A DNA stretch of 49,489 bases from NCBI GenBank assembly GCA_019136685.1, contig JAGVTS010000077.1, forward strand, positions 1 to 49,489, given 5' to 3'. The DNA is from Bacillota bacterium (GTDB lineage: Bacteria > Bacillota > DTU025). Shown here in pieces: positions 30,824 through 41,769 of this stretch. A program made the position numbers and the translations under genes. Position 1 is the stretch's first letter. The number at the start of each line of letters is the position of its first letter. The notes under the pieces were generated by a model, which was not told the origin of the DNA, searched no databases, and saw nothing but the letters and a program-made list of their open reading frames with translations.

Positions 30824-30869
30824 TGAGGCAGAAGGCGGCTAATCAGGTTTGTGCGGGGAGGTGGGCGGA

Positions 30870-31622
30870 GTGGACGGCCTAGAAGGCGTCATCGGGCTGA
30901 TCTGGTTGATGTTCCTTGTGGGATCGGTGCTGCGCGCCATTGTCCAAGGCAAGAGGCGTGCCGAGCAGGAAGCCGCCAGGCGGGCCATGCGGCGCGCGCA
31001 GGGGCGACCTGACGCGGCTGTGCCGGGCCGAACAAGTCAGTCACAGGCGCCGGCCCCGCCGCGGCGGGCGCCGGTCCCGCGCAGGCAGGTGCTCAGGCCC
31101 GGGTGGCCGGTCTACCCCGGCATGCCGGCTCAGCCCGTGGTTGTGGTCGAACAGGGCGAAGGCGAAGGCGAAGGCGAGTCTACCGAGGGCGGCGACACGC
31201 TTCAGCCCGGACGGTGGGGCGCGCAGGAGGATGACTATTCCACCGAGGGAGACGGCCGCGACATACGGCGCCGGCTCAGGCAGGAGCAGTCAGAGGAATG
31301 GCAGTCCGACAGGGCGCGGACGTGGGAAATGCCCGCCGATGCCGGTTCTCTGGGCGCTCCGGGGGAGGTTGTCGACGAGCCATTTGTGAGGTCGGCCGAC
31401 GCGTTTGGGGTCAGCATGGATTGGGATATGCTGGACGGGGCTCTTGATGAGGATATGGACGCCGAACTCGGCGGGGATGTCGTGGCCGCTCGGCGCCTTG
31501 ATGCAGATTCCGGAGTGTGGAAGTTCCCGGGCAGTGTTGAGCCGGAGCATGCCCTTGCAGGGATAGTGTGGGGGACTGTGCTCGCAGCGCCGCGATGCAG
31601 GTTGACTCGGCATGGGCGGTAG
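30870..31622 (+). CDS. Membrane-anchored hypothetical protein downstream of floA
   Basis: 250 aa from GTG 30870, behind GGGGAGGTGG. One N-terminal helix (GLEGVIGLIWLMFLVGSVLRAIV) is followed by an Arg/Ala-rich helix, a Pro-rich stretch (APAPPRRAPVPRRQ), an acidic EGEGEGE repeat, and a long charged, probably disordered region. The last 25 residues turn hydrophobic again (HALAGIVWGTVLAAPRCR); I recall a similar short tail in other small proteins beside floA, but cannot confirm it. It occupies the place of Bacillus yqfB without evident similarity. Likely part of the nfeD-floA unit. Function unknown. Confidence 0.75.
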   Translation: MDGLEGVIGLIWLMFLVGSVLRAIVQGKRRAEQEAARRAMRRAQGRPDAAVPGRTSQSQAPAPPRRAPVPRRQVLRPGWPVYPGMPAQPVVVVEQGEGEGEGESTEGGDTLQPGRWGAQEDDYSTEGDGRDIRRRLRQEQSEEWQSDRARTWEMPADAGSLGAPGEVVDEPFVRSADAFGVSMDWDMLDGALDEDMDAELGGDVVAARRLDADSGVWKFPGSVEPEHALAGIVWGTVLAAPRCRLTRHGR

Positions 31623-31630
31623 TGTAAGCT
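31602..31630 (+). promoter_or_regulatory. Probable promoter of the purine operon
   Basis: TTGACT (31602-31607), a 17-nt spacer and TAAGCT (31625-31630). It overlaps the end of the preceding gene and would start transcription near 31637, just upstream of the riboswitch. Confidence 0.5.
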
Positions 31631-31675
31631 TGAGGCAGGCAAGCTAGCAAGTTGAACTGAATACGCTGCTTTCAC

Positions 31676-31797
31676 GAGCGAAAGTGCGCCTAGGGTTCCA
31701 CTTCCGCGCCGCGCGGGTGCGGTGCGCAAGGTTCGGTCCGAGCGGCGCAGGCGCCATGGCGGCGCTACACCTCTAGGGACAAAAGCCCCGGCGGTTA
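31676..31797 (+). promoter_or_regulatory. ykkC-family riboswitch, probably PRPP-sensing (subtype 2b)
   Basis: The leader contains the ykkC conserved blocks in order: GCGAAAGTG (31678-31686), CTAGGGTTCC (31690-31699), GGTCCGAGCGG (31735-31745), CTACACCT (31765-31772) and GGGACAAAAGCCC (31776-31788), with variable hairpins between. GCGC after GAAAGTG can pair with the GCGC after GAGCGG. ykkC subtypes sense guanidine, ppGpp or PRPP. The purE operon downstream points to PRPP, the substrate of the first purine step. The conserved 3' block is also the 5' arm of the terminator, so ligand binding should prevent termination. No guanine aptamer is seen next to it. Ligand assignment is from context. Confidence 0.85.
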
Positions 31798-31838
31798 GGT
31801 TTCACTCACCGTAGTGAACCGCCGGGGCTTTTCTTTTT
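31781..31838 (+). terminator. Riboswitch-controlled intrinsic terminator before purE
   Basis: AAAAGCCCCGGCGGTT (31781-31796) pairs perfectly over 16 bp with AACCGCCGGGGCTTTT, followed by CTTTTT. The loop holds a smaller TTCACT/AGTGAA pair. Its 5' arm overlaps the last conserved block of the ykkC aptamer. Confidence 0.93.
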
Positions 31839-31896
31839 CGCTTGGTGATTCTGTGTTTGCTTTCGGTTATCGTAACACCACAAGGAGGGAGCTGCT

Positions 31897-32454
31897 GTGA
31901 AGGGGAGAGCTGCTGGGCATACCCAGGCAGACCCTGGAGTTCGAGTAGGGGTGGTCATGGGGAGCCAGTCAGACCTGGGCAAGATGTCGAAGGCGTGGGA
32001 GGCCCTTGCCGAATTGGGAATCGGGTATGAGGCGAGAGTGATCTCAGCGCACAGGACTCCTGATGAAGCCGCGGCCTATGCTCGCGGCGCAGAGGAGCGT
32101 GGGCTGTGCGTCATCATCGCCGGTGCGGGAGGCGCCGCTCACCTGGCGGGCGTGATGGCGGCCTACACCGTTCTGCCTGTGATCGGCGTGCCCGTCGCAT
32201 CAGGCGCGTTGGGAGGTTTCGACGCCCTATGTGCCACAGTGATGATGCCGTCCGGCGTGCCCGTGGCTACGGTAGCGATCGATGGGGCGGCCAATGCAGG
32301 GATACTCGCAGCGGAGATTGTGGCCCTGCTAGATCAGGAAGTGAGGGAGCGTTTGGCAGAATACAGACGTTCGATGGCGGAGAAGGTACGGCAGGCGGAC
32401 GCACGGGTGCAGGCAACAACGCAGGTGCAGATATCAGGGGGTGCAGTTGATTGA
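31897..32454 (+). CDS. purE: N5-carboxyaminoimidazole ribonucleotide mutase
   Basis: Class I PurE, 185 aa, converting N5-CAIR to CAIR. GTG 31897 follows AGGAGGGAG. Core motifs: VVMGSQSDL, VISAHRTPDEA, IIAGAGGAAHLAGVMAA, PVIGVPV and ATVAIDGAANAGILAAEI. About 17 extra residues precede the core. First gene of the operon, directly under the riboswitch. The usual partner purK, which makes N5-CAIR, is not in the window; it must be elsewhere, or CAIR forms by another route. Confidence 0.96.
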   Translation: MKGRAAGHTQADPGVRVGVVMGSQSDLGKMSKAWEALAELGIGYEARVISAHRTPDEAAAYARGAEERGLCVIIAGAGGAAHLAGVMAAYTVLPVIGVPVASGALGGFDALCATVMMPSGVPVATVAIDGAANAGILAAEIVALLDQEVRERLAEYRRSMAEKVRQADARVQATTQVQISGGAVD

Positions 32455-32711
32455 AATACGTAGCCGATATCGTTGTGACACTGAAGAGGTCCATACTCGA
32501 CCCGCAGGGCGACGCTGTCAGGTCGGCCCTGAAGTCCATGGGCTACACCGGCGTGCAAGACGTGAGGATCGGAAAACGCATTGAGGTTCGCCTTGAGGCG
32601 GCCGACGAAGCCGAGTGCAGGCAGACAGTGGATGAGATGTGCGCGAAACTCCTGGCCAACACGGTTATGGAGACTTACGACTTCAGCATCAGGGAGGCGC
32701 CTAGGGAATGA
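32451..32711 (+). CDS. purS: Phosphoribosylformylglycinamidine synthase subunit PurS
   Basis: Small 86-aa subunit bridging PurQ and PurL in the three-part FGAM synthase of Gram-positives. TTG 32451 overlaps the purE stop by 4 nt. The sequence [31 protein letters not shown] and [11 protein letters not shown] is typical PurS, ending in a helix and TYDFSI. Overlapping starts and stops suggest translational coupling through purE-purS-purQ-purL. Confidence 0.96.
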
Positions 32712-33412
32712 AGTTCGGTATAGTTGTGTTCCCCGGGTCCAACTGCGATAAGGACGTCCAAACTGCAGCGCGCGCCGTCGGCCATGATGCCGATTTCATC
32801 TGGCATACGGATACGTCTGTGGATGGGTTCGACTGCCTAGTGTTGCCGGGGGGATTTTCATACGGTGACTACTTGCGCACCGCGGCCATCGCGCGATTTT
32901 CGCCGGTGATGGAGCCGGTTGCTCGTTATGCGGCATCCGGCCGTCCCGTCATCGGGATCTGCAACGGGTTTCAGGTTCTGCTCGAGGCGGGTTTGCTTCC
33001 CGGTGCGATGCTGCGCAATACCAGCTGCAAGTTCGTATGCAAGCCGCAGCGGATACGAGTGGAATCGACACGTACTCCGTTTACGCGCAAGTTCCGCCAG
33101 GGCCAGGTGATTACATTGCCTATCGCCCATGGCGACGGCAATTACTACATCGACGGCGAGACGCTTGAACAGATGGAACGGGGCGGCCGGGTAGTGTTCA
33201 GGTACTGCGATGAATCCGGCGAGCCGACGCCCGAGTCCAACCCCAACGGCAGTCTCAACAACATCGCCGGCATATGCAATAATGCCGGCAATGTGCTTGG
33301 CATGATGCCCCACCCCGAACGCGCCGCGGAAGGGATACTCGGCGGCGCCGACGGAAGGCTGTTACTCGAATCAGTTGCCCAGTGGGTGCAGGGAGGCGGC
33401 AAGATTGGCTGA
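32708..33412 (+). CDS. purQ: Phosphoribosylformylglycinamidine synthase, glutaminase subunit PurQ
   Basis: 234-aa class I glutamine amidotransferase subunit supplying ammonia to PurL. ATG 32708 overlaps the purS stop (ATGA). Motifs: [21 protein letters not shown], the nucleophile in GICNGFQ, and the catalytic His in [10 protein letters not shown] near the end. It overlaps purL by 8 nt. Confidence 0.97.
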
Positions 33413-35636
33413 TGAGTTGATATGGCAGACTATGGGCCTTTCGGATGAGGAATACGAGCGCATCCGCGTGCTGCTTGGGCGGGATCCAAACTACGTTGAG
33501 CTCGGCATGTTTTCGGTCATGTGGTCCGAGCACTGCTCCTACAAGAACACGCGCGCCGTCCTGCGTGGGCTGCCCACTTCAGGGCCGCAGGTGCTGCAGG
33601 GGCCGGGCGAGAACGCCGGGATTGTCGACGTCGGCGACGGACTGGCTGTCGTCTTCAAAATCGAGAGCCATAACCACCCCTCGGCGGTCGAGCCCTACGA
33701 GGGCGCGGCCACCGGCGTAGGGGGCATCATCAGGGACATCTTCACCATGGGCGCCCGACCCATCGCATCCCTCGACTCTCTGTGGCTGGGCGATCTCAGC
33801 TCGGCCCGGGCGCGTAGGCTGTTTTCGGGGATAGTGGCAGGCATTTCGGGATATGGAAACGCCGTGGGCATCCCCACCGTCGGGGGCCAGACGATGTTTC
33901 ATCGCTCATACGAAATCAATCCGTTGGTCAATGCCATGTGCGTGGGTTTCATGCGCCATGAAGATATCAAGCGCGGCGCTGCCACGGGCGTCGGCAATTC
34001 CGTTATGGTAATTGGCTCCACAACCGGCCGAGATGGGATACACGGCGCTACGTTTGCATCGGCCGACCTGACCGATGAAGCTATTGAACGTAAGTCGGCG
34101 GTTCAGGTAGGCGACCCTTTCCGCGAGAAACTGCTGCTTGAGGCTTGCCTGGAGCTGGTGGCGCGCGGGTGTGTACTGGGCATTCAGGACATGGGCGCCG
34201 CCGGGCTGACATGTTCATCGTGTGAGATGGCGTCGCGGGGCGGCACTGGGATGATCATTGATCTAGACCGAGTGCCAAGGCGTGAGACGGGCATGACTCC
34301 ATACGAAGTCATGTTGTCGGAATCACAGGAGAGAATGCTTCTGGTGCCGACTCCAGGCCGGGAGGAGGAGGTTCGGGAAGTCCTCGTCAAGTGGGGCCTC
34401 GAGGCTGTGGTAGTGGGAGAAGTCACGGCGGACGGGATGATCACCTTGATCGAAGGCGGGGCTCGAGTGGCGCAGGTGCCTGCGAGAGCTCTTGCAGATG
34501 AGGCGCCGGTCTATCACAGAGAATCGTCGAAACCAGAGTATGTAGAGAGGCTGGCTGCGTTCGATACGGCCGGAGTGCCGCCGTGCGCGGATCTGGGAGG
34601 CGCTCTGCTCCGGCTTATCGGCAGCCCGAGCATTGCCAGCAAGAGATGGGTTTGGGAACAGTACGATCACCAGGTAGGGGCCGGCACGGTGATAGGGCCG
34701 GGCGCCGACGCAGCCGTGATACGTCTGCCCGGATCCAAGCGTGGGGTCGCGCTGTCGACTGACTGCAACTCCAGGTATTGCTATCTCGACCCGCGCCTGG
34801 GCGCGGCGCATGCCGTGGCCGAGGCCGCACGCAACGTGGCCTGCACCGGAGCGCGCCCGTTGGCCGTGACCAACTGCCAGAACTTCGGCAATCCCTACAA
34901 GCCCGAGGTGTTCTGGCAGTTCCGCGAGGCTATCGCGGGAATGTCCGTGGCGTGTCGCGCGCTGGGAACGCCCGTCACAGGCGGCAATGTCAGCCTGTGT
35001 AACGAGGATGGCGAAACGGCCATTCGCCCGACGCCCGTCATAGGGATGGTCGGCGTGATAGACGATGTAGAGCTCCGGGTGCCCATGGGGTTCCAGGCAG
35101 AAGGCGATATCGTGGTGCTTCTGGGCGCCACTCGCGATGAGATCGGAGCATCGGAGTATCTGGCGACTGTACACGGGGTGGAGGCCGGGCGGGTGCCCGC
35201 ACTCGACCTCGAGGCCGAGGCTCGCCTATGCGAGCTACTGTGGACCGCGGCGTCGAGAAGGCTGTTGAGCTCGGCGCATGACATGTCCGAGGGCGGCCTG
35301 GCAGTGGCTCTGGCTGAGTGCGCTATCGCCGGAGCTCTTGGCGCGACCTTGCGGGTTGATTGTGTCGGCGGCGATGCTGGGCTCGCCCCTGATCGTTTCC
35401 TGTTCAGCGAGAGCGGAGCCAGAGCGCTGGTTACCATTGGACCTAGTCAGCGCGACGAGTTCCTAGCCCTTGCGGCCGGCCTGAACGTGCCTGCGGCGGC
35501 TTGTGGCCGTGTGGGCGGCAGCAGGCTGTGTGTGGAGTTCGGTGAGGGAGCGGGCGGTGCGCGGCGCATCGATGTGAGTGTCGCTGCACTGTCGAAGGCG
35601 TACGAGGAGGCGGTACCATGCGCCATGCAGGGGTAA
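33405..35636 (+). CDS. purL: Phosphoribosylformylglycinamidine synthase subunit PurL (small type)
   Basis: 743-aa ATP-dependent synthetase subunit that makes FGAM. TTG 33405 lies 8 nt after GGGAGG and inside the end of purQ. It is the short, PurS/PurQ-dependent type. Motifs: [16 protein letters not shown] near the N-terminus, [50 protein letters not shown] and [16 protein letters not shown], plus a second synthetase half with [16 protein letters not shown]. It overlaps the start of purF-purM by 19 nt. Confidence 0.97.
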
Positions 35637-38185
35637 CGCCTGCCGGTGTCGACAGGGCAGGCAATGTGGACAGGCCCAGGGAGGAGTGCGGCGTTTTTGG
35701 CGCTTGCATGAGTTCGGGCGGCGGCGCCGTGTTGACCACCTTCTACGGCCTCATGTCTCTTCAACACAGGGGCCAGGATAGCGCGGGCATCGCGTCGTCG
35801 GACGGGGAGCGTATCCGGGTCGTCAAGGGTCCTGGTCTTGCTGCCGAAGTCTTCCATGAAGACGCGCTCGCTCGTCTGTCCGGACATGTGGCTATCGGTC
35901 ACGTGCGCAATGCGGCGCGCGCGGATGAAGACGACACGGCCATACAGCCCTTCGTCTTTCATTACACAGGCGGGATGATGGCTGTTGCCCACAATGGAAG
36001 CATAACCAACGGCAGGGCCCTGCGCGAGCGACTGGGGCGCTCGGGAGTAGTGTTTCAGAGCGAGTCGGACGCCGAGATCATTGGCTCGCTCATCGCCCGC
36101 TACTACTCGCTTGGCATTATCGGAGCCATAGAACGCGCCATGGAGGACATGGAGGGCGCCTACTCCTTCTTGGTCATGGCGGGCGACATGATATACGCTG
36201 TGCGCGACCCCTATGGGTTCCGACCGCTAGCGGTGGGCTCGTCGCCGGATGGATGGGCGGCGGCCTCCGAGACATGCGCCTTGGACGCCGCGGGCATGAC
36301 AACCCAGCGTGACGTGGCGCCCGGCGAGATTGCCGCCATTTCATCTGACGGTATCAGACGAATATCGACGCGTGCCTCCCGAAGGGGCGCAAACCGAGCT
36401 ACGTGCATTTTCGAGTACATCTACTTCGCGCGCCCGGATTCGGTGGTGGACGGCATCAGCGTCTCCGCCGCGAGGCAGGCTTTCGGCGCGCGGTTGGCGG
36501 CTGAGTCTACGATTGAGGCGGATGCGGTGATCAGTGTTCCGGAATCCGGCGTGGCCGCCGGGCTGGGATACGCGGCAGCCAGCGGCATCCCCTACCAGCA
36601 GGGGATTGTGAGGAATCGGTATCTAGGACGGACGTTCATCCGCCCTACGGCGAGTCAGCGCGAGACGGGGGTGCGTCTGAAGCTCAACGCGGTTGAGCAC
36701 GCCTGTGCCGGACGTCGTGTGGTGTTGGTAGACGACTCCATCGTGCGAGGCACGACCAGTGCTCGGCTGGTCAGCCTGATGCGCAGGTCCGGGGCGCGCC
36801 AGGTGCACCTCGGGGTGTCATCGCCTCCGGTGAAGTTCGCGTGCTGCTACGGGATAGACACGTCGCGCGGCCGCGAACTCGTTGCAGCGACCAAGAGCAT
36901 CGAGGAGATACGCCAGTTCGTAGGCGCCGATAGCCTGCACTACCTGTCCATCGAAGGACTGCTCCAGACCATGCGGGCGCTAGAAGCGCATCCGGATTCA
37001 GCGGACGGAGGCGGAGCCGGCGCCGGATTCTGCACTGCCTGTTTCACCGGCGTCTACCCGGACCGTGCCGAACCGTGCGGATTGTGTAGCCCGAGCGGAT
37101 CGGCCGGGCGACTATCGTATGCAAAAGCAGGCGTGAACATCGACGAAGGTAACCGCGCCGTAGATCTAATAAGGTCCGCTGTGAGGAGCACCTTCACGTC
37201 GAACGTGGTGGGCGATGTGGGCGGCTTCGCCGGCATGGTCAGGTTCAACCCGGTCGGATACGATGATCCCGTGCTGGTATCGGGCACGGATGGCGTGGGC
37301 ACCAAGCTCAAGATAGCTTTCGCCATGAATCGCCACGACACGATAGGCATAGACGCGGTGGCCATGTGCGTCAACGACGTGCTAGCGTCGGGGGCGCGTC
37401 CTCTGTTTTTCCTGGACTACATCGGTTGCGGAAAGCTGGAAGCCGAACAGATAGCTCAAATCGTGTCGGGAGTTGCGGCTGGATGCCGTGAGGCAGGCTG
37501 CGCGTTGGTGGGTGGGGAGACCGCCGAGATGCCTGGGTTCTACCCGGACGGAGAGTACGACATCGCGGGATTCGCGGTCGGCGCAGCGGATAGGCAGCGC
37601 ATAGTCGATGGCTCGGACATCCGGCCGGGAGATCTGGTGATCGGACTGGCCTCGTCCGGGTTGCACTCCAACGGGTACTCTCTTGCCCGAGAAGCGCTGC
37701 TGGAACAGGGCGGCCTGACCGTGGCACAGAGCGTGGACGGGCCGGGATCGGAGTTTGGTCGCGGGTTCGGCTTCACTCTGGGCTGTACCGTCGGCGAGGA
37801 GATGCTCAGGCCGACCAGAATATACGTCAGGCCTGTGCTGGCCCTGATGGAGCAGGCGCGTGTGCTGGGGATGGCGCACATCACCGGCGGCGGGCTTGTT
37901 GAGAACCCGCCTCGCATGCTGCCTGCCGGCGCATCGATGCGACTTGAGTGGGGGTCGTGGCCCGTGCACCCCATATTCCAGCTGATTCAGGAGGTAGGCA
38001 ACGTGGATCCGGGCGAGATGCGCCGGGTGTTCAACATGGGCATAGGGTTCATGCTTGTAGTGCGGCCGGGCGACGCACAGCGCACAGTGGAGATCCTTCA
38101 GGCCAACGGGGAGAACGCCTACGTCATAGGGGAGATACTGCCGGGCGATGGCAGAGTGTCGTTCTGTGAGCAGAGCGCGGAGTGA
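35618..38185 (+). CDS. purF/purM: Bifunctional PurF-PurM fusion: PRPP amidotransferase / AIR synthetase
   Basis: One uninterrupted 855-aa frame from ATG 35618 (AGGAGG 8 nt upstream) joins two purine enzymes. Residues 1-482 are glutamine-PRPP amidotransferase: a propeptide ending REE, then nucleophile Cys24 in [14 protein letters not shown], the PRPP loop [14 protein letters not shown], and cysteines matching the 4Fe-4S type ([22 protein letters not shown]). A linker of about 16 residues contains CGLC. Residues 499-855 are AIR synthetase: [45 protein letters not shown] and FNMGIGF. No start codon lies at the junction, so a separate PurM is unlikely. PurF is step one and PurM step five. Confidence 0.93.
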
Positions 38186-38222
38186 GCGGGCAGGCGCTAC
38201 GGATCCGGAGGAGGCGTGCACT

Positions 38223-38858
38223 GTGAGTATCCGCTTGGCGGTTCTGGTTTCAGGGCGGGGATCGAATCTGCAGGCGATAATGGATGCTGTCCGGGCCGGA
38301 CATCTCGATGCGTCGATCGAGATCGTGGTCTCCGACATGGCCGACGCGCTTGCCATTGCGCGGGCGCTGGCAGGCGGTATTCCGGCGGCTGTGGTGCGGC
38401 GGCGGGATTACGTTTCGCGCGCGGAGTTCGAAGCGGCTCTGGGGGGGGCGGTGGAAAAGGCCCGACCGGACCTGATTGTGCTGGCAGGTTTCATGAGGCT
38501 GTTGGGCCCGGCGTTTTTGGATCGGTTTCCGGGCCGTGTGATTAACATCCATCCGTCTTTGCTGCCGGCCTTTCCGGGGCTTGAGGCACAAAGACAGGCG
38601 CTGGAGTACGGAGTGAAGTTCACAGGATGCACTGTGCACTACGTGGACTACGGCATGGACTCCGGCGCCGTCATCGACCAGCGTGTGGTGGAAGTGATGC
38701 CGGGCGACGATGTGGACAGCCTATCGGCGAGGATCCTACAGCAGGAGCACGACTTGCTGGTGGATGTAATAAGGCGTCTCGCCCAACAGATGGGCGGGCA
38801 GAGAGGCAACGAGTTAGGCGAAGGGAGATGCGCGCACCGTGGGCAAGAGCAGGCGTAG
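38223..38858 (+). CDS. purN: Phosphoribosylglycinamide formyltransferase
   Basis: 211-aa folate-dependent GAR transformylase. GTG 38223 has GGAGGAGG 8 nt upstream, in the gap after the fusion gene. Motifs: LVSGRGSNLQAIMDA, the catalytic region INIHPSLLPAFPG with its His, and TVHYVDYGMDSGAVI with the essential Asp. The C-terminus is charged and overlaps purH by 20 nt. Confidence 0.96.
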   Translation: MSIRLAVLVSGRGSNLQAIMDAVRAGHLDASIEIVVSDMADALAIARALAGGIPAAVVRRRDYVSRAEFEAALGGAVEKARPDLIVLAGFMRLLGPAFLDRFPGRVINIHPSLLPAFPGLEAQRQALEYGVKFTGCTVHYVDYGMDSGAVIDQRVVEVMPGDDVDSLSARILQQEHDLLVDVIRRLAQQMGGQRGNELGEGRCAHRGQEQA

Positions 38859-40437
38859 GGCGCTGATAAGCGTGTACGACAAGGAAGGTGTAGCCGAGTT
38901 CGGGCGGGCTCTGGCAGAGCTGGGCTTCGAGATTGTCTCAACCGGTGGGACTGCCTCGGCTCTGCGCCGGGCGGGGCTTGAGGTAACGGATGTTTCTGAT
39001 GTGACGGGTTTCCCCGAAGTGCTCGACGGCAGGGTCAAGACCTTGCATCCTCGAGTTCACGCAGGCATTCTGGCCCGACCCACTCAGGAGCACATGGAGG
39101 CTTTGGAAAAGCTAGATGTGACCCCCATCGACATAGTCGTGGTTAACCTCTACCCGTTCCAGCGAACGGTGGAGAGCGGGGCGGGCGAGGCAGAGGTTGT
39201 GGAGAACATAGACATCGGGGGTCCGTCCATGGCCAGGGCGGCGGCCAAGAACTTCGACAGGGTAGCGGTCATTGTGGATCCGGCGGATTACCCTGTCGTC
39301 ATTGCTGAGCTGAGGGAGAATGGGTCGGTGTCGCAGAAGACCCGCGCGCGCCTGGCGGCCGCGGCATTTCAGCATACCGCGGCCTACGATGCTGCTATCG
39401 CCCGCTACTTCGCCGACAGCGTAGCCGGCGCGCCCAAGCAGCGCGGGCAGCATGAGGCGGACGAAGGGCGAGAGGCAGGCCCGGGTTTGGGACGCGAGTT
39501 TACCCTAGGGGGCACGGCAGTTCAGACCCTCCGCTACGGCGAGAACCCGCATCAGGCAGCTGCCTTTTACCGCGTTGCGGGCGCCCGCCCGTGGGGCTTA
39601 GCCGCAGCCAGGCAGCTGGGAGGCAAGGAACTCTCCTTCAACAATATCGGAGACGCGGATGCTGCCGTCAGAGCGGTGGCTGAGTTTTGCGAGACCGCAG
39701 TGGTCATCGTCAAGCACGCCAACCCGTGCGGCATAGGAGTAGGCGCCGGCGCGGCGGAGGCATATCGAACGGCGCTGGATTCCGACCCCGTGTCCGCCTT
39801 CGGCGGAATCGCGGCCTTCAACCGCCTTGTGGACCTGGAGGCAGCGCGGCTGATGTCGGAGATATTCCTCGAGGTCATAATAGCGCCGGGATTTGCTCCC
39901 GAAGCCGTTGAGCTGCTCCACGGTAAGAAGAACCTGCGCCTTCTGGAGCTGGCCGTGGATGATATCATGCCTGGAGCTGGGTGGGACGTGCGGTCGGTCG
40001 CCGGTGGTGTTCTGGTGCAGGAGCCTGATAGAGTTGGACGCCTTGATATGCGGGAAGTGTCCGTGGTCACCAGGCGCGCGCCGAACGAGCGCGAGATGAC
40101 TCAGCTGGCGAATGCGTGGAAGGCGGTAGCTCATGTGAAGTCCAATGCTATCGTGCTGTGGAAGGGAAATGGTACCGTGGGCGTCGGCGCTGGGCAGATG
40201 AACCGGGTGGGCGCGGCCAGAATCGCGGTGGAGCAGGCAGGACCGCGGGCAGCGGGCTCAGTGATGGCGTCGGACGCCTTCTTCCCGTTCGCCGACACCG
40301 TCGAGCTTGCGGCGAAAGCGGGCGTGACAGCCATAGTCCAGCCGGGCGGATCCCTGCGAGACAAGGATTCGGTCCAGGCCGCGGACGCGCACGGGATCGC
40401 CATGGTCTTCACAGGCAGACGGCACTTTCGACACTGA
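38839..40437 (+). CDS. purH: Bifunctional AICAR formyltransferase / IMP cyclohydrolase
   Basis: 532-aa enzyme for the last two steps to IMP. GTG 38839 is inside the end of purN, with AAGGGAG about 11 nt upstream. The N-terminal cyclohydrolase part starts RRALISVYDKEGVAEFGRAL with STGGTA and VKTLHPRVHAGIL. The transformylase part has LRYGENPHQ, KHANPCGIG, SDPVSAFGGI and near the end ASDAFFPFAD followed by VQPGGSLRDKD. A short Gln/Glu/Arg-rich insertion lies between the domains (PKQRGQHEADEGREAG). Confidence 0.97.
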   Translation: MGKSRRRALISVYDKEGVAEFGRALAELGFEIVSTGGTASALRRAGLEVTDVSDVTGFPEVLDGRVKTLHPRVHAGILARPTQEHMEALEKLDVTPIDIVVVNLYPFQRTVESGAGEAEVVENIDIGGPSMARAAAKNFDRVAVIVDPADYPVVIAELRENGSVSQKTRARLAAAAFQHTAAYDAAIARYFADSVAGAPKQRGQHEADEGREAGPGLGREFTLGGTAVQTLRYGENPHQAAAFYRVAGARPWGLAAARQLGGKELSFNNIGDADAAVRAVAEFCETAVVIVKHANPCGIGVGAGAAEAYRTALDSDPVSAFGGIAAFNRLVDLEAARLMSEIFLEVIIAPGFAPEAVELLHGKKNLRLLELAVDDIMPGAGWDVRSVAGGVLVQEPDRVGRLDMREVSVVTRRAPNEREMTQLANAWKAVAHVKSNAIVLWKGNGTVGVGAGQMNRVGAARIAVEQAGPRAAGSVMASDAFFPFADTVELAAKAGVTAIVQPGGSLRDKDSVQAADAHGIAMVFTGRRHFRH

Positions 40438-40449
40438 GGAGGCGTACAT

Positions 40450-41769
40450 ATGACAACGCGCAATCCGTCTTCCCGTCCCAATGTGCTGATCGTGGGGTCG
40501 GGAGGAAGGGAGCACGCAATAGCCTGGCGCCTCGCGCAGAGCCCCAGGATAGGACGTATTTTCGCTGCTCCGGGTAATCCCGGAATCGGCCGACTCGCCG
40601 CATGCGCGCCGGTTGGGGCGACCGACGTGGCCGGGCTGGTCAAGTTGGCCCGGGAGGCCGCATGCAACCTGGTGGTAGTAGGCCCTGAAGCGCCTCTGGC
40701 AGCCGGGTTGGCCGATGCCATGCGCGCTCAAGGCATAACGGTATTCGGGCCGAGCGCGGCGGCGGCCCGGATCGAATCGTCCAAGCACTACGCCAAGGGC
40801 GTCATGGCCCGGGCTGGAATACCAACTGCGCACTGTGAAGCATTCACGGACCTTGGCCGCGCACGCGATGCCGCGCGTGCTGTTGCGCGAGAGGCAGGCG
40901 GCGTCGTGGTTAAGCTGGACTGCCTGGCGGCAGGCAAGGGCGTTGTAGTGGCCGGTAGCCCGGAAGAGGCTGCGCGGGCTGTTGACGAGCTCGGCGCCAT
41001 GGGCGGGAGCCAAGGCTGCAAGATACTCGTGGAGGAGAGGCTCGCCGGCCCGGAGGCCAGCGTAATGTGCTTGTCGGATGGAGTTGACATATGGGTCCTG
41101 CCGCCGGCGCGCGATCACAAGCGCGCACTTGATGGCGATCAGGGCCCCAATACCGGGGGAATGGGCGCCGTCGCCCCTGCGAGGCTGGTCGCCGACGCCA
41201 TGCTGGCCGATCGGGCGATGCTGGCCGCCATCGAGCGGACGATCCTTAGGCCGGCTATTGAGCAGATGGCGGCGGAGGGCACTCCGTTCGTGGGCGCTCT
41301 GTTCGCAGGGCTGATGCTCACCTCGGAAGGCCCCAAGGTGCTCGAATTCAACTGCAGGTTGGGCGATCCTGAAACCCAGGCGGTACTGCCCCTGGTCGAC
41401 GTAGACCTGCTCGATTTGGTGGAGGCTGCGTGCCATGGGCAGCTGGGGCGTGTGGGCGCGAGTGCAAGTTCGGGTGGAGTACACTACGGCCTCCACAGCA
41501 CGTGTGTCGTGATGGCCAGCCTGGGATATCCCGGTCATTACGAGATGGGGATTCCAATTTGCGTCCCTGACCCGCTGCCGACAGGGGTCACGCTGTTCCA
41601 CGCCGGCACAGCGCTGGACGATGGCAAGCTGGTGTCGGCGGGCGGAAGGGTCATTGGCGTCGTGGGCGTGGCCTCAAGCGCCGCCGAGTCGCGGCGGCTT
41701 ACGTACGACGTAGTGGGGCGCATCGGGTTCGAGGGTGCACACTACCGGCGGGATATCGGAGCAATTTGA
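40450..41769 (+). CDS. purD: Phosphoribosylamine-glycine ligase
   Basis: 439-aa ATP-grasp GAR synthetase and last gene of the operon; ATG 40450 follows GAGGAGGCG. Motifs: VLIVGSGGREHAIAWRL, APGNPGIG, VVGPEAPLAAGLAD, PPARDHKRALDGDQGPNTGGMGA and EFNCRLGDPETQ. The ATP-grasp loop reads KLDCLAAGKGVVVA, where most homologues have KADGLAAGKG; the Gly-to-Cys change is unusual. The operon makes most of the pathway, but purB and purC are not in the window. A 596-bp gap follows. Confidence 0.96.
   Translation: MTTRNPSSRPNVLIVGSGGREHAIAWRLAQSPRIGRIFAAPGNPGIGRLAACAPVGATDVAGLVKLAREAACNLVVVGPEAPLAAGLADAMRAQGITVFGPSAAAARIESSKHYAKGVMARAGIPTAHCEAFTDLGRARDAARAVAREAGGVVVKLDCLAAGKGVVVAGSPEEAARAVDELGAMGGSQGCKILVEERLAGPEASVMCLSDGVDIWVLPPARDHKRALDGDQGPNTGGMGAVAPARLVADAMLADRAMLAAIERTILRPAIEQMAAEGTPFVGALFAGLMLTSEGPKVLEFNCRLGDPETQAVLPLVDVDLLDLVEAACHGQLGRVGASASSGGVHYGLHSTCVVMASLGYPGHYEMGIPICVPDPLPTGVTLFHAGTALDDGKLVSAGGRVIGVVGVASSAAESRRLTYDVVGRIGFEGAHYRRDIGAI

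Follow-up and report, generated by a model that had tools for sequence, protein, structure and literature searches.

PRPP riboswitches of the ykkC superfamily were described in 2018, when singlets made up 130 of the 257 published examples and PRPP binding was found to raise read-through both in vitro and in vivo (PMC5912903). RNAs of this superfamily can switch ligand through few mutations (PMC6031431, PMC7266159). The G96A point mutant of a PRPP aptamer, for example, binds ppGpp, and among the residues that touch the ligand, position 101 is only weakly conserved (a purine in >75% of sequences), with its A contacting the alpha-phosphate (PMC6031431). In Rfam 15, guanidine-I (RF00442) is the sole model available for the entire superfamily.

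The window, by which is meant the whole 49,489-base stretch of DNA analysed here, carries an RNA of this superfamily in the leader of a purine biosynthesis operon (Table 1). Judged from its sequence and from comparison with related RNAs, this leader is very probably an ON switch for the operon, a PRPP riboswitch of ykkC subtype 2b in singlet form. The kind is already known, and the leader is a clear but ordinary fresh example of it from an uncultured Bacillota lineage, whose nearest named relatives, among them Firmicutes bacterium UBA5389 and Clostridia bacterium DTU025, are genome bins.

Table 1. Leader RNA elements and operon genes, in window coordinates
Feature	Position	Strand	Basis or remark
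ykkC core	31676-31807	+	conserved blocks all present, in order
Block GAAAGTG	31680-31686	+	
Block CTAGGGTTCC	31690-31699	+	
Block GGTCCGAGC	31735-31743	+	
Block CTACACC	31765-31771	+	
Block GGGACAAAAGCCC	31776-31788	+	
Block TAGGTTTC	31796-31803	+	
P0 5' strand (G31680-A31683) with 3-bp extension (G31676-G31678)	31676..31683	+	pairs with 31800-31803 and 31805-31807
P1 (31685-31690 with 31744-31749), P1a, P1b	31685..31749	+	RF00442 alignment, model R1
P1b hairpin, enlarged, GC-rich	31701-31730	+	RF00442 and R1 alignments
C31743, equivalent of C49	31743	+	pyrimidine excludes guanidine-I (A there)
P2 hairpin	31750..31766	+	covariation
P3 (31776-31778 with 31786-31788) and long-range pair C31768-G31790	31768..31790	+	RF00442 and R1 alignments
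G31790, equivalent of G96	31790	+	marks PRPP rather than ppGpp
Equivalents of A103-G104-G105, and P0 3' strand TTTCACTC	31797..31807	+	alignment conservation
Intrinsic terminator, 16 bp	31781..31832	+	5' arm within ligand pocket of aptamer; T-rich tract to 31838
purE, first operon gene	31897..32454	+	TIGR01162, 196 bits
purS, purQ, purL, purF-purM fusion, purN, purH, purD	32451..41769	+	NCBIfam, above curated cut-offs

For comparison, ykkC RNAs were collected across the phylum, with downstream genes assigned by comparison with the pur proteins of the window and by scanning cluster representatives with Pfam. The search pattern mis-anchored L023, L095, L100 and L102, which belong to a single clade, and these four loci were excluded from the models. 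Ahead of SMR-type exporters, the RNAs lack the P0 tails and position 49 is A or G. In RNAs ahead of branched-chain amino acid or glutamate genes, 49 is a pyrimidine, the P0 tails are present, and 96 is A or the segment there is shortened. Those preceding purine synthesis genes, the group to which the window belongs, combine a pyrimidine at 49 and P0 tails with G96. Three of the guanidine-type RNAs found before SMR exporters (L002, L042 and L048) have G rather than A at position 49.

The collection also contains variants of the PRPP-like theme. In eleven loci (L044, L054, L055, L077, L086, L090, L099, L103, L107, L112 and L123) the segment from G96 to A103 is shorter by one base (CAGGCGGTAGG), and these RNAs mostly lie before xanthine/uracil-type permeases, a Bmp-type substrate-binding protein or adenine deaminase, and mostly not directly upstream of purine synthesis genes. 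In two related genomes (L072 and L134), a ykkC RNA lies just 3' of what appears to be the 3' half of a guanine/xanthine-type aptamer and precedes a phosphoribosyltransferase gene followed by a gene with a purine permease-like start; this RNA differs from the PRPP consensus at two contacts (G6 to U, G105 to A), so that an altered pocket is possible.

The architecture of the leader is well supported by comparison among the purine-type RNAs. An initial reading made from the sequence alone had reported ykkC blocks in order, overlapping a 16-bp stem before purE; blocks, stem and overlap were all found, and the start it gave, 31676, is the exact beginning of the extended P0 helix. In P0, GAAA at 31680-31683 pairs with TTTC at 31800-31803, lengthened by GAG/CTC. 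Across the alignment of 45 sequences, standard pairs occupy 94.7% of cells, where slid versions reach 46% at most. Changes on both sides are seen in 13 of 24 pairs, with covariation in P0, P1 and P2. P0, a helix that guanidine-I lacks, has such changes in five of its seven pairs; P1 is 99.6% paired and shows them in four of six; in P2, where 94% of cells are paired, they occur in three of the four outer pairs. Residues 31682 and 31684 are invariant in the same alignment, and the leader is retained before purE in genomes of the same genus, family and order. An upstream hairpin that could compete with P0 (31669-31684) was dropped from consideration, being kept only in a relative of the same genus.

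Class assignment was approached with a covariance model, R1, built from 32 purine-context ykkC RNAs of other families, with the family and order of the window excluded. The leader matches R1 at 92.9 bits (E = 7.9e-28) in an alignment spanning model positions 1-118, and R1 has no second match in the window or elsewhere in the 2.9-Mb genome; by comparison, R1 gives ppGpp-context RNAs 63.1-82.9 bits and guanidine-context RNAs 39.1-58.4. Sequence profiles of three groups of ykkC RNAs sorted by downstream gene, with the window outside the training set, give 71.7 bits for PRPP, 35.5 for ppGpp and 7.6 for guanidine, and in leave-one-out tests the right class was chosen every time. PRPP had been proposed earlier as the probable ligand, with a better guanidine or ppGpp score, matched by binding data, named as one result that would count against it; the profiles instead favor PRPP, by 36 bits over ppGpp and by 64 over guanidine, and the leader has the sequence, structure and context features of the subtype, namely the ykkC core with P1-P3, P0, a pyrimidine at 49, G96, the contact residues and purine genes downstream.

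The nearest competing class is the ppGpp riboswitch (ykkC subtype 2a), which would here switch purine synthesis on during starvation. Subtypes 2a and 2b have the fold, P0 and pyrimidine 49 in common, and a single substitution, the G96A noted above, suffices to convert a PRPP aptamer to ppGpp binding. The nucleotide that separates the two, which the sequence-only reading had singled out for inspection, is G in the leader (G31790), where ppGpp riboswitches have A, C or U or no residue at all, and together with C at position 49 it agrees with the requirements for PRPP (PMC6031431). Two routes, the model alignments and a backward count from A103-G104-G105, placed position 96 at the same residue. 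Its G is invariant in 45 of 45 purine-type RNAs, all of which also have C or T at 49, whereas ppGpp-context RNAs have A or a shorter segment. As the ppGpp profile also falls 36 bits below that for PRPP and the gene context is purine synthesis rather than branched-chain amino acid or glutamate metabolism, a ppGpp sensor is improbable.

A subtler alternative is that the aptamer is of the PRPP type but that its pocket has drifted, through U101, toward another sugar-phosphate or nucleoside diphosphate of purine metabolism. With published-structure numbering carried over by consensus rather than by alignment of the crystallized sequence, the leader matches the PRPP consensus at all published contact positions but this one. 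The contacts G6, G48, G96, G104 and G105 (contacts from PMC6031431) are invariant across the 45 purine-type RNAs, the equivalents G31684 (G6), G31742 (G48), C31770 (C77), G31798 (G104) and G31799 (G105) are present and invariant, and A31797 is conserved in 44 of 45. At position 101, U31795 replaces the mostly purine published consensus; it recurs in several relatives of the same family and the same order, and ligand changes through few mutations are known in ykkC RNAs (PMC6031431, PMC7266159). Against drift, 101 is the weakest of the conserved contacts and the strongly conserved ones are all kept, while U101 also occurs in L079, where the ykkC RNA precedes a xanthine/uracil-type permease and purE. 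A shifted ligand is thus about as improbable as ppGpp. It is also unlikely, if by a hair less so, that U101 in the family of the window and in a second family of the order marks a pocket variant reading a different or additional purine-pathway phosphate.

Guanidine-I, the sole matching Rfam family, would be the assignment suggested by database models, since RF00442 gives the only credible Rfam match. At gathering thresholds, no Rfam match was obtained in the window or in ten related loci; at a relaxed threshold, RF00442 matches full length (31679-31795, model positions 1-107) with 51.9 bits and E = 1.9e-8, uniquely in the genome. As the curated cut-off is 63, the leader escapes routine annotation, and a missing match was not read as a missing element. 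Of the covariance-model check proposed earlier, then, the match to a PRPP model was obtained with R1, while the one model that Rfam offers stayed under its cut-off. With C31743 in place of A49, P0 tails present, a guanidine profile score of only 7.6 bits, and purine synthesis downstream rather than guanidine export or breakdown, a guanidine sensor is scarcely credible. The microRNA and small-RNA Rfam matches that also appear at the relaxed threshold arise by chance from the terminator hairpin or the GC-rich arm.

The terminator stem consists of 16 perfect pairs between AAAAGCCCCGGCGGTT (31781-31796) and AACCGCCGGGGCTTTT (31817-31832), followed by CTTTTTC, with a folding energy of -32.7 kcal/mol (z = -6.8 relative to shuffled sequences). 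In this hairpin, residues 95-102 and the 3' strand of P3 fall in the 5' arm and the 3' strand of P0 falls in the loop, so that ligand-bound aptamer and terminator are mutually exclusive. Each of the 12 related leaders that were folded has a stem in this position, overlapping the pocket; the 5' arm is in every case the GCCCCGGCGG segment, and a clear T tract is present in some but not all. An automatic terminator scan reported none for the leader because the loop exceeds the limit of 8 set in that scan, and a scan upstream of the leader recognized no sigma-70 promoter.

Secondary-structure energy calculations, which leave tertiary contacts and folding during transcription outside their scope, place the native aptamer fold at -43.2 kcal/mol (-47.9 kcal/mol if the lone C-G pair is left out), against a computed minimum of -60.2 kcal/mol for 31676-31808. 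The non-native minimum arises because mispairing is possible in the GC-rich arms P1b and P2; as unconstrained folding of the aptamer gives this non-native structure, the native fold was evaluated directly and reliance was placed on covariation. That the native fold differs from the minimum-energy structure might suggest a plain attenuator, with an active terminator and an aptamer surviving as a decayed relic, but the invariant residues are all intact and the helices covary across 45 genomes, which a relic would not maintain, and this explanation can be dismissed with near certainty. Neither U101 nor the non-minimum fold nor the unrecognized promoter outweighs conservation and covariation.

The genes downstream form one purine operon, with a Shine-Dalgarno-like AAGGAGG near 31881 ahead of purE. 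The purF-purM fusion is a single reading frame of 855 amino acids (35618-38185) matching TIGR01134 at residues 24-481 and TIGR00878 at 499-841. Because the five closest relatives (L137-L141) also have it unbroken and none of the 75 other loci tested does, it looks, from these comparisons, like a real and lineage-specific fusion and not a sequencing error. Immediately upstream of the leader is a 257-aa reading frame (30849-31622) without an NCBIfam match.

Where that frame ends, at about 31622, some 54 bases remain before P0, leaving no room for a guanine aptamer. None (RF00167) was found at E values up to 10 in 31500-32000, nor elsewhere in the 94%-complete genome or in the ten related loci, so the leader is a singlet. 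The earlier suggestion of a solo version was thereby borne out; any implication that this is unusual was not, given the share of non-tandem RNAs among published PRPP switches (PMC5912903). The PurR N-terminal domain was likewise not found in the 94%-complete genome, and the leader appears to provide RNA control of the whole purine operon.

PRPP, the sugar-phosphate from which purine synthesis starts, is used by PurF, so that the output of the operon consumes its input. Taken together with the aptamer residues, covarying helices, overlapping terminator, gene context and conservation in relatives observed here, analogy with the class leads us to infer ligand binding and an ON direction. With little PRPP available, the 16-bp terminator would form, taking in the 3' strand of P3 together with residues 95-102 and the next bases, and transcription would halt before purE. 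When PRPP is abundant, it would be bound in the P3/P1a/P0 pocket by the equivalents of G6, G48, C49, C77, G96, G104 and G105; the bound aptamer would hold 31776-31807, the terminator could not start, and polymerase would continue into purE-D.

The leader adds an uncultured and poorly sampled Bacillota lineage to the range of a known riboswitch class and illustrates a practical gap, as with guanidine-I alone modeled in Rfam such switches score below the cut-off or risk a guanidine label. Compared with guanidine-I (RF00442), it shares P1, P2, P3 and most core residues but has P0 tails, C49 rather than A, a score under the cut-off and no guanidine gene. With the ppGpp riboswitch (2a) it shares the fold, P0 and pyrimidine 49, and differs by G96 and purine context. 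Like the tandem guanine-PRPP riboswitch (PMC5912903), it has a PRPP aptamer and a single overlapping terminator; unlike it, it is without an upstream guanine aptamer, the preceding frame ending 54 bases before P0. Closest are the singlet PRPP riboswitches of Heliobacterium modesticaldum purB and Facklamia ignava purC (PMC5912903), which have the same core, P0-P3, G96 and pyrimidine 49, a purine synthesis gene downstream and a terminator 5' arm overlapping P3 and P0, and from which the leader in the window is set apart by a longer GC-rich P1b, U101, purE as first gene and an operon containing a purF-purM fusion.
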